The notes under the pieces were generated by a model. It saw only the letters and a program-made list of their open reading frames with translations, was not told where the DNA came from and ran no database searches. From positions 1 through 30,163 of the IMG/VR virus record IMGVR_UViG_3300025652_000340: 30,163 nucleotides of DNA; one strand, given 5' to 3'. Shown one piece after another: positions 6,770 through 16,504 of the stretch (its first letter is position 1; each line of letters starts with the position of its first letter). The stretch comes from a virus. Made by a program: the position numbers and the translations under genes.

Positions 6770-6789
6770 CCCCACATTAAAACGTGGGG
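6770..6789. other. Hairpin 1 of a three-hairpin array
   Basis: A perfect 6-bp stem (CCCCAC against GTGGGG) encloses the 8-nt loop ATTAAAAC. It begins 1 nt after the stop of the last late gene. No T tract follows on either strand, so it is not a textbook intrinsic terminator, though it may act as a barrier between convergent operons. The same loop occurs in the next two hairpins. Confidence 0.75.
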
Positions 6790-6797
6790 CAACAGTT

Positions 6798-6825
6798 GAT
6801 AAAAAGCATTAAAACGCTTCTTATC
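6798..6825. other. Hairpin 2 of a three-hairpin array
   Basis: A 10-position stem with one A-C mismatch (GATAAAAAGC against GCTTCTTATC) closes the identical loop ATTAAAAC. The stem sequence is unrelated to hairpin 1, while the loop is unchanged. This points to selection on the loop and on pairing rather than simple copying. Confidence 0.7.
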
Positions 6826-6828
6826 TTT

Positions 6829-6862
6829 GTGTTGGTAAAACATTAAAACGATTTTACAACAC
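6829..6862. other. Hairpin 3 of a three-hairpin array
   Basis: A stem of about 12 bp with two single-base bulges (GTGTTGGTAAAAC against GATTTTACAACAC) again closes the loop ATTAAAAC. Its 3' arm overlaps the inverted-repeat element at 6852-6878. A fourth ATTAAAACG, in a looser fold, lies at 7580-7588. Confidence 0.65.
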
Positions 6863-6878
6863 GGTATATAGTTAATGC
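6852..6878 (-). repeat. Cassette repeat, inverted copy (left boundary of a small gene)
   Basis: Read on the minus strand it gives GCATTAACTATATACC followed by GTGTTGTAAAA. It resembles, in opposite orientation, the element at 7125-7154 (GCACTAACCATATACC, then TATACGTTGTAAAT). The pair brackets the gene at 6879-7064, with the stop codon of that gene touching this copy. Confidence 0.6.
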
Positions 6879-7064
6879 CTAAGTCCGTGCCTTACCATCA
6901 TTTTCCACTTCTTTAGCCATAATTAAAATATTTTTTCTAGCCCATTCCACCCCAGCTTCAAAACCTTTTTTAAGTTCTTTATAACTATTTGTTTCGTGCA
7001 TATCAAAATAATTATGTGCATAATATTCAGATGCTTTTTCAATTTGTTGTTTTGTGTTTTCCAT
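6879..7064 (-). CDS. Small hypothetical protein bracketed by inverted repeats
   Basis: A 61-residue, mainly helical and charged protein. The stretch KELKKGFEAGVEWARKN is a motif often seen in short phage proteins, with a conserved-looking Gly-Phe-x-Ala-Gly and Trp-Ala. It has no membrane segment or signal. It is the last gene of the minus-strand cassette block and faces the late operon. Repeat copies in opposite orientation lie on each side. A long leader of about 60 nt separates the right-hand repeat from its start codon. Function unknown. Confidence 0.7.
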   Translation of the reverse strand: MENTKQQIEKASEYYAHNYFDMHETNSYKELKKGFEAGVEWARKNILIMAKEVENDGKART

Positions 7065-7124
7065 TTTATAAAATATTTTAATTATTACTTCTGTTCTTAA
7101 TTCAATCTTCGTACTATTTACACG

Positions 7125-7154
7125 GCACTAACCATATACCTATACGTTGTAAAT
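7125..7154 (+). repeat. Cassette repeat A1
   Basis: The plus-strand reading is GCACTAACCATATACC then TATACGTTGTAAAT. Copy A2 at 8388-8416 differs at only two positions in the first 26. It lies between two minus-strand genes, just after the stop of the upstream gene and before the leader of the downstream one. It also supplies one half of the 13-bp inverted repeat around the 7159-7548 gene. Confidence 0.75.
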
Positions 7155-7158
7155 AATA
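7146..7158 (+). repeat. Left arm of a perfect 13-bp inverted repeat
   Basis: GTTGTAAATAATA ends one base before the stop codon of the 7159-7548 gene. Its exact reverse complement, TATTATTTACAAC, lies at 7553-7565, four bases beyond the start codon of the same gene. The gene therefore fills the space between the arms almost exactly. Confidence 0.8.
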
Positions 7159-7548
7159 CTAAATAGGCTCAGCCATTAGGCAACAGTAAAATTTATCAAC
7201 ATCATAATCTTTTAAATGTGTTGTTTTTTTAGTCCTTAAGTTTTTAATTAAACAATATTCATATCTAATTTTAACCCTACTTGCATCATTAAATGCGTGT
7301 TTAAATTTATATTTTTTAATAATTTTAAACCTATCCTCTGGCAATCTTTTATAGCGTGCCATTTTTTTCAAGCACTCTTCAATATTAAAACCTCTCAATA
7401 TATCTGCATCTATTTCATACCAAGAAAACGGAAAATAAAACTCTTGACCAATTGCGTAATCTTCAAATTTATACCCACTACCCATAAAACACACAGTGTC
7501 TATATTTCTTGATTTTAATAATTCTAAATATTCTTTCTCTTTCCACAT
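7159..7548 (-). CDS. Hypothetical protein framed by perfect 13-bp inverted repeats
   Basis: A 129-residue soluble protein rich in Lys, Tyr, Phe and Asp. Residues 13-31 read RNIDTVCFMGSGYKFEDYA and 32-45 IGQEFYFPFSWYEI. It has five Cys and a basic middle (KMARYKRLPEDRFKIIKKYK). I recognise no catalytic motif. The inverted repeats at its edges, 0 nt from the stop and 4 nt from the start, make it look like an exchangeable unit. A defence or counter-defence role would fit an accessory cassette in a phage but is not shown by the sequence. Confidence 0.7.
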   Translation of the reverse strand: MWKEKEYLELLKSRNIDTVCFMGSGYKFEDYAIGQEFYFPFSWYEIDADILRGFNIEECLKKMARYKRLPEDRFKIIKKYKFKHAFNDASRVKIRYEYCLIKNLRTKKTTHLKDYDVDKFYCCLMAEPI

Positions 7549-7552
7549 AATA

Positions 7553-7611
7553 TATTATTTACAACACTATCCAAAGTGAATTAAAACGCCATTTTACACT
7601 AGACGTTGGCA
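7553..7611 (-). repeat. Composite repeat C with hairpin potential
   Basis: It starts with the right arm of the 13-bp inverted repeat. It then contains CAAC at 7562-7565 pairing with GTTG at 7605-7608, and AGTG at 7575-7578 pairing with CACT at 7597-7600, around ATTAAAACG. A nested two-stem layout of this type, with AAC and GTT ends, is reminiscent of integron attC recombination sites. The match to the attC box consensus is incomplete. Confidence 0.4.
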
Positions 7612-7622
7612 GTAACTAAGAA

Positions 7623-7886
7623 TTAACTCATTTTGCAACTACCTAAAACCCATTCAATTTTTCTAACAAGTTCTGGTTTTTTAAATCCATTTTTGCAATA
7701 ATTGTTTATTAATTTAAAAAGGTCTTTCTCAAATTCAGAGCCACTACTGCCAACACCAGATAAATTTAATTGCTCTAAATGGTATTTTTGCATATTTTCT
7801 GATATGTGTTCAATCATTCCATCGTCCATATAGTCATAATCAGATAATCCTTGCTTATATAAAAACTCTTTGGCTTTTTTGTTCAT
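7623..7886 (-). CDS. Hypothetical protein, 87 residues
   Basis: An acidic-to-neutral soluble protein starting MNKKAKEFLYKQGLSDYDYM, with a Gly/Ser turn (SGVGSSGSEF) and a helical second half ending EWVLGSCKMS. It contains no recognisable domain. Its leader (7889-7916) is almost identical to that of the Cys-rich gene at 8420-8599, so the two are probably expressed alike. It is one of six genes in the minus-strand cassette block. Confidence 0.7.
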   Translation of the reverse strand: MNKKAKEFLYKQGLSDYDYMDDGMIEHISENMQKYHLEQLNLSGVGSSGSEFEKDLFKLINNYCKNGFKKPELVRKIEWVLGSCKMS

Positions 7887-7887
7887 T

Positions 7888-7947
7888 GTTTATTTATTTA
7901 ATTTATTAATATTCTATCCGCAACTAACCTTAACCGTATACGTTACC
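7888..7947 (-). repeat. Cassette repeat B1 with its gene leader
   Basis: The leader part matches the leader at 8601-8628 at 27 of 28 positions (TTTATTTATTTA, then TTTATTAATATTCTA with one difference). The following CAACTAACCTTAACCGTATACGTTACC belongs to the same family as A1 and A2, all in one orientation. The duplicated leader sits directly against the start codon and may carry transcription or translation signals. Confidence 0.65.
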
Positions 7948-7959
7948 CACCATTAACCT

Positions 7960-8133
7960 CTATAAGTTGCTTAACATTCCAATAGGCTTGTGCGTAATTT
8001 GTAATTCATTCCAATGATGTGTAAAGTTTAAGGTTACTGTAGATTGTTTGGGTTGCACACAGCATTCTTTTTTTTCGCTGCAACGAGTTAAAAGCACGAA
8101 CGTTAAAATTAATAAACAGTATTTTTTTCTCAT
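7960..8133 (-). CDS. Small putative lipoprotein
   Basis: A 57-residue protein that starts MRKKYCLLILTFVLLTRCSE: three positive residues, a hydrophobic core and Cys18 in a lipobox-like LLTRC. Arg at -1 is not ideal for signal peptidase II. The mature part would be about 40 residues, with two further Cys (ECCV) and the ending KPIGMLSNL. It would be anchored in the inner or outer membrane. In phages such proteins act as Rz1-like spanins or as superinfection exclusion factors. It is far from the lysis genes, so exclusion is the more natural guess. The only support is the signal sequence. Confidence 0.6.
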   Translation of the reverse strand: MRKKYCLLILTFVLLTRCSEKKECCVQPKQSTVTLNFTHHWNELQITHKPIGMLSNL

Positions 8134-8146
8134 TTTATTTGAATGA

Positions 8147-8365
8147 TTAATCCATCTGAAAACCCTTTGTTTTCAGGAATGTCTCCATCTTCACTACTGC
8201 TTTCTCCAACGGCAATAATTGTTTTGTTAATTCAATTATAAAAGTTTTATAACAACTCTCTTTTGTAGCTAATCTCGCTTCTTTCTCAATATTTAAAGGG
8301 CAGTCTTTTAATTCCGCTAATACTGTTTTTAATCTACGCTCGTAATCTTCTTTTAATTCTTTCAT
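8147..8365 (-). CDS. Small coiled-coil protein
   Basis: A 72-residue protein that is almost entirely charged helix: MKELKEDYERRLKTVLAELK is followed by two more amphipathic stretches with Leu heptads around 50-65. Two Cys are present, at 22 and 38. Its start lies 22 nt past the A2 repeat, and the lipoprotein gene follows it after 13 nt, so the two share a cassette without a repeat between them. Function unknown. Confidence 0.65.
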   Translation of the reverse strand: MKELKEDYERRLKTVLAELKDCPLNIEKEARLATKESCYKTFIIELTKQLLPLEKAVVKMETFLKTKGFQMD

Positions 8366-8387
8366 AATGTTTTGTTTTTAAATTTTC

Positions 8388-8416
8388 GCACTAACCATAT
8401 AACCATACGTTGTAAA
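8388..8416 (+). repeat. Cassette repeat A2
   Basis: The plus-strand reading is GCACTAACCATATAACC then ATACGTTGTAAAC, nearly identical to A1 (7125-7154). It begins four bases from the stop of the Cys-rich gene and ends 22 nt before the start of the coiled-coil gene, the same between-gene position as A1. Confidence 0.75.
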
Positions 8417-8419
8417 CAA

Positions 8420-8599
8420 TTATGCCCTAGAATAAATGTTATCAAAACACTCATTGCAAAAACCTAACTTTTGTGTTGGCTTACAAAGACAGTTAGCGCA
8501 TAACTGCTCGCTATCGCTTTCACAACAACGTGTATAATTATCATCTTCTACTGTTTTAACACATTCTATTACTAAATTAATTAGTTCTTTTTGGTTCAT
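8420..8599 (-). CDS. Small Cys-rich, probable zinc-binding protein
   Basis: A 59-residue protein with seven Cys in CC-x(7)-CxxCxC and CxxC arrangement: Cys25, 26, 34, 37, 39, 48 and 51 (TRCCESDSEQLCANCLCK, then GFCNECFD). Pairs of CxxC at this spacing usually hold one structural zinc. It has no membrane segment. It is the first gene of the minus-strand operon and lies closest to the control region, so it may be among the earliest proteins made. Regulation or protein binding is possible. Confidence 0.65.
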   Translation of the reverse strand: MNQKELINLVIECVKTVEDDNYTRCCESDSEQLCANCLCKPTQKLGFCNECFDNIYSRA

Positions 8600-8600
8600 C

Positions 8601-8662
8601 TTTATTTATTTACTTTATTAATATTCTACACATCTAACCTTAACCTTACAAGTACGTTAAGC
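8601..8662 (-). repeat. Cassette repeat B2 with its gene leader
   Basis: It combines the duplicated leader (8601-8628) with a repeat core. Read on the minus strand the core is GCTTAAC, a spacer, then GTTAGAT. These two ends fit the integron attC box patterns RYYYAAC and GTTRRRY exactly, but the gap between them is about 16 nt, far shorter than in known attC sites. The minus-strand -7 element overlaps its outer end. Confidence 0.55.
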
Positions 8663-8707
8663 AAATATACAAAATAATTTAATAAGTAAATGTTAAAGTT
8701 TGTTAAA
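8662..8707 (-). promoter_or_regulatory. Promoter of the minus-strand cassette operon, with two boxes
   Basis: Read leftward, TATATTTG at 8669-8662 matches the Bacteroidota -7 element TAnnTTTG. No clean TTG lies 19 nt further out. Instead two TGTTAAA boxes (8691-8697 and 8701-8707, spaced 10 bp) occupy the -33 region, so a bound regulator could block or replace normal contacts. The promoter faces the Cys-rich gene. Confidence 0.5.
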
Positions 8708-9103
8708 GTATTTTTTAATTGAACATAGTTATTCTATTATACGAGTAAATATTTTTTGATAATAATGTTTTCTAATATTTTTTGATAAATATATATTTGT
8801 AATATCCAAGCCAATTATTAAAAAGTAATGCTTTAGTTTTATTATGGGATAAATTTACGGGTATTTTTTTTGATAATTGCTATATTTCAACATTACTATT
8901 TATTTATTTATTAACAAGTCTTATTTTATAAGGCTTTCTTTAATGTGTTAACAAGTAAATTATTATTCAACTATATATATACTGTATATTTGAATAGGGA
9001 TTGATTAACCTTACTATCTTGTTTTTTTTCATTAACACTTGTTTTAAATAGAGGTCAGAAATGGCTTCTATTTTTTTTAACATTTTTTTAACATCTTAAA
9101 TAG
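8708..9103. other. Gene-free control region, possible replication origin
   Basis: About 400 nt without a credible gene between the diverging operons. It holds three copies of TATTTTTTGATAA (8750-8762, 8776-8788 and, with two extra T, 8862-8876), two of TTAACAAGT (8911-8919, 8948-8956), a possible extra plus-strand -7 element TATATTTG (8985-8992), and paired TTTAACA boxes at 9076-9093. Repeats plus AT-rich DNA at the switch of transcription direction would suit an origin or a regulator-binding region. Neither is proven. Confidence 0.5.
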
Positions 9104-15579: not shown

Positions 15580-15894
15580 ATGACAGAAGCAATACAAGTT
15601 CTTATAGAAACAATTGAACCATCATACGAAACAACTGGTAGTTATCAATATCCGCTTCCTAATGAAGTAACTTTATCTATTGATAGTAGTACTTATGTTA
15701 TAGACTTAAACCTTAAAGAGAGTGTTTTAAAAGCTGAAATATGGAACGCTGAAGATGAAATAGAATTGACAAGTGAAGATGTAGATTTTATTTACAATTA
15801 TCTTGATGGCTTATTAGAAGAAGAAATTGATTTAACTAAAAGATATTACGAAGAAGAAAAGTATCAAGAACAAACATCATATTATATAAGATAA
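15580..15894 (+). CDS. Conserved acidic phage protein
   Basis: A 104-residue strongly acidic protein. The first half is beta-like (YPLPNEVTLSIDSSTYVIDL), the second half a helix rich in Glu and Asp (VDFIYNYLDGLLEEEIDL). The high negative charge could mimic DNA, but similar short acidic proteins are common in Bacteroidota phages without known roles. Its stop overlaps the ATG of the methyltransferase fragment by 1 nt. Confidence 0.6.
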   Translation: MTEAIQVLIETIEPSYETTGSYQYPLPNEVTLSIDSSTYVIDLNLKESVLKAEIWNAEDEIELTSEDVDFIYNYLDGLLEEEIDLTKRYYEEEKYQEQTSYYIR

Positions 15895-16121
15895 TGGAAA
15901 ATATAACAAACGAGTGCAATATGGAATTAATGGCAAGGTATGAAGATAACCACTTTGATTTAGCTATTGTAGACCCGCCTTATGGAATTGATGTTACTAA
16001 AATGACTTTGGGAAACGGAAAAAAGAAAATAGACAGAGGCACTACAAACTGGGATAGCAACACTCCTACAAAGGAGTATTTTGAAGAATTAAGGAGGGTT
16101 TCTAAAAATCAAATTATATGA
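15894..16121 (+). CDS. DNA methyltransferase, N-terminal part (split gene)
   Basis: A 75-residue frame carrying the catalytic motif IV of amino-methyltransferases: FDLAIVDPPYGIDV, with Asp27-Pro-Pro-Tyr30. The frame stops right after RRVSKNQII, where intact enzymes of this type continue with WGGNYF. The rest of the enzyme is encoded in another frame from 16118, with an ATGA overlap. A deletion of about 16 nt explains the break. The fragments may be a dead gene or, through coupled translation, a two-part enzyme. The intact form would methylate adenine or cytosine amino groups, often to escape host restriction. Confidence 0.75.
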   Translation: MENITNECNMELMARYEDNHFDLAIVDPPYGIDVTKMTLGNGKKKIDRGTTNWDSNTPTKEYFEELRRVSKNQII

Positions 16122-16504
16122 CTGAAAACTTACCTCCAAGTATGGGTTGGATTTATTGGGATAAAGGAACTGGTGCAAATGATTTTAGTGATGGGGAACT
16201 TGCTTACACCAGCTTTAACAGAGCATTAAGAAGTTATAAAGTTAGTTGGGTAGGTGCTAATGCAAATAATGGCACACCAAGAATACACCCAACGGAAAAA
16301 CCTATTAAATTGTATGAATGGATTTTAGATAAATATGCCAAAGAAAATGATAAGATATTAGACACTCATTTAGGTAGTGGCTCAATTGCTTTAGCGTGCC
16401 ACAATTTAAAGTTTGATTTAACCGCTTGTGAATTAGATACAGAATATTATAACGCAGCAATGAAAAGATTAAAAGAACATCAACAACAATTAACAATGTT
16501 TTAA
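16118..16504 (+). CDS. DNA methyltransferase, C-terminal part (split gene)
   Basis: A 128-residue frame that continues the enzyme from TENLPPSMGWIYWDKGTG. It holds the conserved RIHPTEKPIKLYEWIL (residues 55-70) and the AdoMet-binding motif I ILDTHLGSGSIALAC (80-94), with acidic ELD at 105-107. DPPY before the AdoMet motif is the beta-class order. The ATG overlaps the stop of the N-terminal part, so ribosomes could restart here. Everything needed except the short WGGNYF segment is still present, and the reading frame is well kept, which suggests a recent break or retained use. Confidence 0.75.
   Translation: MTENLPPSMGWIYWDKGTGANDFSDGELAYTSFNRALRSYKVSWVGANANNGTPRIHPTEKPIKLYEWILDKYAKENDKILDTHLGSGSIALACHNLKFDLTACELDTEYYNAAMKRLKEHQQQLTMF

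Follow-up and report, generated by a model that had tools for sequence, protein, structure and literature searches.

A block of small genes and its repeated element

The window (the whole 30,163-nucleotide stretch of viral DNA analysed here, IMG/VR record IMGVR_UViG_3300025652_000340) holds six small ORFs on its minus strand between positions 6879 and 8599, which run against the late genes as an earlier, sequence-only reading of this DNA had described. A short plus-strand element, CTAACCwTAnnnnnATACGTTr, has exact copies at 7128, 7924 and 8391 and a diverged one at 8634, bearing out the claim of at least four copies in one orientation (7128-7149, 7924-7945, 8391-8412 and the diverged 8634-8659). 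The pattern CTAACCNTANNNNNATACGTTR gives three exact matches in the window, while shuffled sequences average 0.58 even with three mismatches allowed. On the gene strand the 22-nt element reads YAACGTATnnnnnTAwGGTTAG, and we refer to it as the left arm (L). Compact copies (L104, L114, L127, L138, L119, L126 and L135) show what comes after L: a right arm (R) that is complementary to it, TTAAyTATAnn..GTGTTr. The features of the block are as follows.

8656-8696, minus strand: array start border, a possible attI-like end (GTACGTTAAGCAAATATAC...), common to the relative L005
8634-8659, minus strand: L, diverged copy, at the array start
8420-8599, minus strand: small gene, 59 aa, with N-module, in-frame joint NYTRCC and Cys-rich C-module
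8523-8541, minus strand: R, ATAATTATACACGTTGTTG, within gene 8420-8599; arm and phase identical in L005, L121 and L139
8391-8412, minus strand: L, exact pattern match
8147-8365, minus strand: small gene, 72 aa; N-module also in L088
7960-8133, minus strand: small gene, 57 aa, Cys-containing, with a signal-peptide-like start
7924-7945, minus strand: L, exact pattern match
7623-7886, minus strand: chimeric gene, 87 aa, with N-module, joint QLNLSGV (in phase, codon 39.00) and C-module
7751-7769, minus strand: R, TTAAATTTATCTGGTGTTG, within gene 7623-7886
7742-7754, minus strand: R box GTTGGCAGTAGTG, start of the C-module cassette; complements the L box 7605-7616 at the cassette's other end over the first 10/10 nt
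7553-7616, minus strand: two-armed site, compact and decayed, with boxes at 7605-7616 and 7553-7565
7159-7548, minus strand: whole-gene cassette, 129 aa, with complementary boxes 7553-7565 and 7147-7159 (GTTGTAAATAATA, 13/13)
7128-7149, minus strand: L of the complete hairpin, exact pattern match
6879-7064, minus strand: small gene, 61 aa, in the hairpin loop
6857-6875, minus strand: R, pairing with 7128-7149
6770-6834, minus strand: array end border, which includes a hairpin and is conserved in L005

The single complete hairpin in the window is formed by 7128-7149 and 6857-6875. Positions 6852-6878 had been taken for an inverted copy of the element, but they are the complementary right arm of the 7128-7149 copy, and inverted gene cassettes at 6852 were thereby ruled out. 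The minus-strand fold, of 17 + 7 bp, encloses gene 6879-7064; a 5/2-nt spacer separates its 17-bp stem from the outer stem of 7 bp. Folds were predicted for both strands of 6848-7152, giving -24.7 kcal/mol for the minus strand (shuffles -18.0, z -2.2) and -16.0 kcal/mol for the plus strand. The loop also holds a second, nested palindrome, a perfect 16-bp inverted repeat (ATAATTAAAATATTTT, 6919-6934 and 7070-7085) around most of gene 6879-7064.

At 7553, where a diverged copy had been reported, lies a two-armed site (7553-7616), compact and decayed, whose fold is weak and no better than that of shuffles. The proposal that the element always sits between the stop of one gene and the leader of the next holds for the left arms only; right arms, which that reading had missed, lie within genes 7623-7886 and 8420-8599. 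The C-module of gene 7623-7886 is bounded by GTTGGCAGTA, a 10/10 match. In the L088 copy of the N-module of gene 8147-8365, the ORF terminates within the R arm (LTI*). One complete hairpin is left, and at both coding joints of the window the L arm differs in type from the R arm, so part of the array may have lost its activity. Protein family searches with the six block proteins gave nothing above cut-offs, a tblastn search with the window's chimera found the same phage only, and tblastn of the window gave no recombinase homologue, in agreement with the remark that none lies nearby.

In the relatives L006, L010 and L011 the block is absent, and the holin gene (84-89% identical) leads straight into DNA matching the window from 8711/8722 onward. 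Between the same borders (left flank 95% identical to the window, right flank 80%), L005 carries one different chimeric gene, MNILHKTSKDF..LEKA-INYTRCC-TELKQKYTKEINNL; by local alignment its array start border is 80% identical over 121 nt and near-identical from GTACGTTAAGC on. With the block absent or replaced in relatives, a case of the gain and loss that the sequence-only reading had proposed to look for, and with variable flanks at a recurring element, the suggestion of exchangeable gene cassettes inside a phage is sustained; the alternative pattern, with the six genes in fixed order among relatives and the element absent elsewhere, was not what we found. The array-end border (6790-6863) is similar (84.6%) to DNA of Cellulophaga phage phi39:1 that adjoins gp02, a coding-joint gene of that phage.

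Hairpin sites in phages and Flavobacteriaceae

Scanning IMG/VR with the element returned 60 contigs, about three quarters of them with recognisable recurring leaders; the leader is constant and the sequence beyond ACG|TTR varies. The element recurs in many flavobacterial phage contigs as well as in host genomes, and its variable flanks change over at ACG|TTR. A pure promoter or leader repeat was rejected: leaders do recur, but the flanks switch at this point and pairing arms are present.

A looser definition of the arms made the pairing statistic too noisy and was replaced by a stricter hairpin test, which recovered 283 viral sites in 117 loci, against 8 in a swapped-complement control, and 42 host sites. 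The viral and host sites have the folded form of an attC site (paired R and L boxes, a spacer and a variable loop), with viral loop lengths clustering near 45, 85 and 140-179 nt. Covarying stem columns are found in viral and host sites alike, and G.T occupies two fixed columns (259/283 and 252/283 viral sites, 42/42 host sites). The 22-nt element is the left arm of an attC-like hairpin, probably an integron-type recombination site.

The outer boxes of the sites read TTGnnnnYAAC and GTTRnnnnCAA. Boxes around one gene are complementary, perfectly so over the six variable positions in 19/73 host and 50/603 viral pairs (0.6 and 0.9 in the shuffled control), and they match better than boxes belonging to one site. 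Such complementarity is characteristic of integrons, where it stems from circular cassettes. On sequence comparison the flanks switch at G|TTR, the putative point of cutting, in a box GTTRnnnnCAA instead of GTTRRRY / RYYYAAC.

With the strict L pattern, a genome scan yielded ten contigs, mostly from marine Flavobacteriaceae (Winogradskyella, Psychroserpens, Polaribacter, Wenyingzhuangia, Aquimarina and Hyunsoonleella); the host-type pattern was present in 73 of 199 sampled Flavobacteriaceae genomes, with no control matches. In host arrays each gene is followed by a site of ~125 nt and every gene is on the same strand; a tyrosine recombinase, typically of 355-401 aa, adjoins the arrays (L166 of Psychroserpens, recombinase at 7698-8861, and L168). 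Among 18 recombinase regions, 12 contained sites, two did not and four ended at or near a contig end. The sites followed the recombinase, within ~6 kb and in fixed orientation, in 10 of the 12 regions and lay on its other side in two. The best models for the array-linked enzyme were XerA (NF040815; PDB 5hxy); it is without the IntI insertion and matched TIGR02249 only at 2-178 and 239-315, below the integron-integrase cut-off. In Polaribacter vadi (L168, 8575-9882) a second, different tyrosine recombinase of 435 aa lies directly after the array-linked one.

Recombinases of phage Leef_1 and of the phage loci L264 and L279 are encoded 0.2-0.65 kb after a coding site. They group with the host enzymes, apart from XerC/D (100/99), in a tree that was built without canonical IntI and in which L279 is long-branched. 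With respect to the site, genes in phages are oriented the other way round from genes in hosts.

Coding joints and the exchange of protein modules

In phage contigs L lies ~30 nt before the start codon and R often falls within the ORF near codon 40, in phase. An ORF begins in the loop and reads through R at 160 of the 283 viral sites (phase 137:20:3) and at 1/42 host sites; the coding-joint pattern had two matches in 397 host genomes, both excluded as unrelated housekeeping genes. Several genes end at the TAA of the following TAAC box, which serves as their stop codon. Where the loop is non-coding, viral cassettes have the site at the gene's 3' end, an arrangement from which the coding-loop viral cassettes depart. 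Deposited genes with a coding joint include Leef1_37 of Polaribacter phage Leef_1, followed by integrase Leef1_38, P12002L_0037 of Polaribacter phage P12002L and gp02 of phi39:1 (MKLYKK..YEQLSIQRVVSSACKCG..).

Three R-arm scans gave 586 joints, 293 within an ORF, and 212 well-formed coding joints were clustered. Of 23 multi-member N-clusters, 17 had at least two C-modules; two of these (L010/L011) were spurious and left uncounted, so that 15 genuine N-modules each pair with 2-4 different C-modules. In the other direction, 14/21 multi-member C-clusters had at least two N-modules, each with 2-3. The N-module 'mknkqdilklhpmigrltp..teqLTLTDV', for example, leads into four C-modules (SQQRELLLAY, VGRSEQLKAL, SKCNCDGNDD and SQQRELLLGF). 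Switch pairs numbered 44 at the joint compared with 0-6 at offsets of 70-90 nt; offsets of 15-50 nt were disregarded, as the conserved arm itself contaminates them. In 8/20 same-N pairs the sequences part at the R stem, 12-14 nt short of the joint. Some switches therefore took the R arm with them and may be due to homologous recombination.

The pN/pS ratio was 0.15 in N-modules and 0.16 in C-modules; at the joint pS was only 0.06, with a ratio of 1.33. These values indicate protein-level selection on both halves and conservation of the joint at the DNA level. An AlphaFold prediction for one chimera (16 sequences; moderate confidence, pLDDT 75.5, pTM 0.45) shows helices and places the joint in a loop between them, but is too weak to assign a fold. 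C-modules are often Cys-rich and zinc-knuckle-like, with CxxC pairs (gene 8420-8599 of the window, L096, L097 and phi39:1 gp02).

A proposed system and its alternatives

We consider the block to be probably a short CALIN-like cassette array without its own recombinase, based on flavobacterial attC-like hairpins, in which swaps produce N-C chimeras. More broadly, and with greater reserve, we favour the view that marine flavobacterial phages assemble small proteins combinatorially through translated, in-frame integron-like joints, using a XerA-like/attC-like system, widespread in Flavobacteriaceae, that differs from classical integrons. Recombination itself we infer from the patterns described above. 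Points against the proposal are the same-N switches that stop short of the joint, the lone complete hairpin and the mixed arm types in the window, the missing IntI insertion and sub-threshold score of the host recombinase, and the opposite orientation of phage and host genes. In each site L is paired with R over ~16 nt; two G.T mismatches are conserved, the asymmetric spacer stays unpaired, and boxes lie on the outside. Cassettes would be exchanged by a tyrosine recombinase cutting at G|TTR, presumably a host or phage XerA-like enzyme that acts on folded single strands. In Flavobacteriaceae the sites come after whole genes, beside a XerA-like recombinase. In phages the site often stands at the front of the gene instead, with L before the start codon, the start codon and first 35-45 codons (the N-module) in the loop, and R translated in frame as Q-L-x-x-x-x-V. 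The cassette after R supplies the C-module, its next site in several cases providing the stop codon (TAAC box), and swapping this downstream cassette would therefore make a new N-C chimera. The chimeras might be selected accessory proteins, perhaps for host takeover or anti-defence.

Modules could also be shuffled by homologous recombination between the short conserved arms, catalysed by a phage single-strand annealing recombinase, with the hairpins as relics or regulatory structures. The ~19 nt shared among R arms, the 8/20 switch points that fall on the R stem's 5' edge and not on the joint, and a window contig without a recombinase of XerA-like type would all fit; yet complementary boxes at both cassette ends, covariation of the arms with fixed G.T columns common to host arrays, and the linkage between integrase and array are not predicted, and we regard this explanation as unlikely. 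Lower still is the probability of an ordinary phage CALIN that captured host attC cassettes, its in-frame ORFs being a by-product of dense coding. While integrase-free attC clusters are published for phages, including P12002L (PMC9892861), such an origin is at odds with the phase distribution of 137:20:3, with purifying selection on both halves and constraint on the joint as DNA, with reciprocal N/C swapping, and with hosts in which coding joints are missing apart from the two housekeeping matches.

Least probable of all, in our estimation, is that the structures are not recombination sites but palindromic selfish elements within genes, or leader or terminator structures of mRNA. Palindromes translated in frame are known from Rickettsia, and the pairing is G.U-rich on the phage mRNA strand. 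However, hosts show the same strand asymmetry with the gene on the other strand, so that host mRNA would have A.C mismatches, and module swaps and cassette-end boxes also speak against this explanation.

The CALIN-like array that we favour shares with integrons and CALINs a hairpin site with outer R boxes, an unpaired asymmetric spacer and a variable loop, arrays of small cassettes with complementary ends and, in hosts and at viral non-coding loops, at least two sites around single-gene cassettes with the site 3' of the gene. The flank switches also suggest a crossover point at G|TT, the one used in integrons. As with phage CALINs, the sites occur in flavophage P12002L. Unlike these systems, the phage site stands at the gene's 5' end, and its loop encodes the N-terminal half from the start codon on; the reading frame continues through the R arm, which links up with exchangeable C-modules; two fixed G.T mismatches are present, with no extrahelical bases in the L stem; and the R box conforms only loosely to RYYYAAC/GTTRRRY. 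Canonical attC sites have described extrahelical bases and loops that tolerate replacement (PMC2727003).

Clusters of attC sites without an integrase have been published in phages, including P12002L (Qi et al. 2023, PMC9892861), of which one site, P12002L_attC2, is recombined by IntI1 (PMC9892861). The expectation of an undescribed system held only in part: phage attC clusters were already known, but the in-frame coding sites, which the sequence-only reading had not noticed, and the module exchange at them appear to be new. The terms 'in-frame' and 'coding sequence' are absent from PMC9892861, and no report of natural coding attC sites or of module exchange at them was found in searches of open-access full texts. 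Few integrons were found in Bacteroidetes by IntegronFinder 2.0 (PMC9024848).

Sedentary chromosomal integrons resemble the host arrays in having one gene per site, genes on one strand and an adjoining tyrosine recombinase, but the host recombinase here is XerA-like (NF040815 best) without the IntI insertion and points the same way as the cassettes. Nivina et al. reportedly designed synthetic attC sites inside coding sequences in 2020; there too an attC lies within an ORF and recombination fuses protein parts, whereas the sites described here occur naturally and are found widely among phages. Shufflons and HsdS exchange systems also replace C-terminal parts of proteins site-specifically, by inverting segments at one locus, in contrast to the exchange of independent cassettes in arrays of many different genes. 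A diversity-generating retroelement, defined by a reverse transcriptase and a template/variable repeat, would make adenine-directed substitutions, unlike the whole-module swaps seen here.

What integrons are known to shuffle is whole genes. The sites described here lie inside genes and would shuffle protein parts, in a natural equivalent of exon shuffling and of attC sites engineered into coding DNA. Such an arrangement would explain how phages continually make new small accessory proteins, suggests that an integron-like system of Flavobacteriaceae has been overlooked, and is directly testable in the cultured phages Leef_1, P12002L and phi39:1.

Among minor observations, DNA methyltransferase-like proteins are encoded in or near viral cassettes of L098, L110, L114, L104, L108 and L120, those of L108 and L120 belonging to the phrog_116 family. 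Elsewhere in the window, the adenine methyltransferase gene at 15894-16504, similar to the one in Cellulophaga phage Nekkels_1 (77% DNA identity), is split into two overlapping ORFs (15894-16121 and 16118-16504) and looks frameshifted. In L048, L050, L054 and L061, near 600-2500, L- and R-like matches, possibly due to chance, flank a 179-aa ORF beside portal-like genes.
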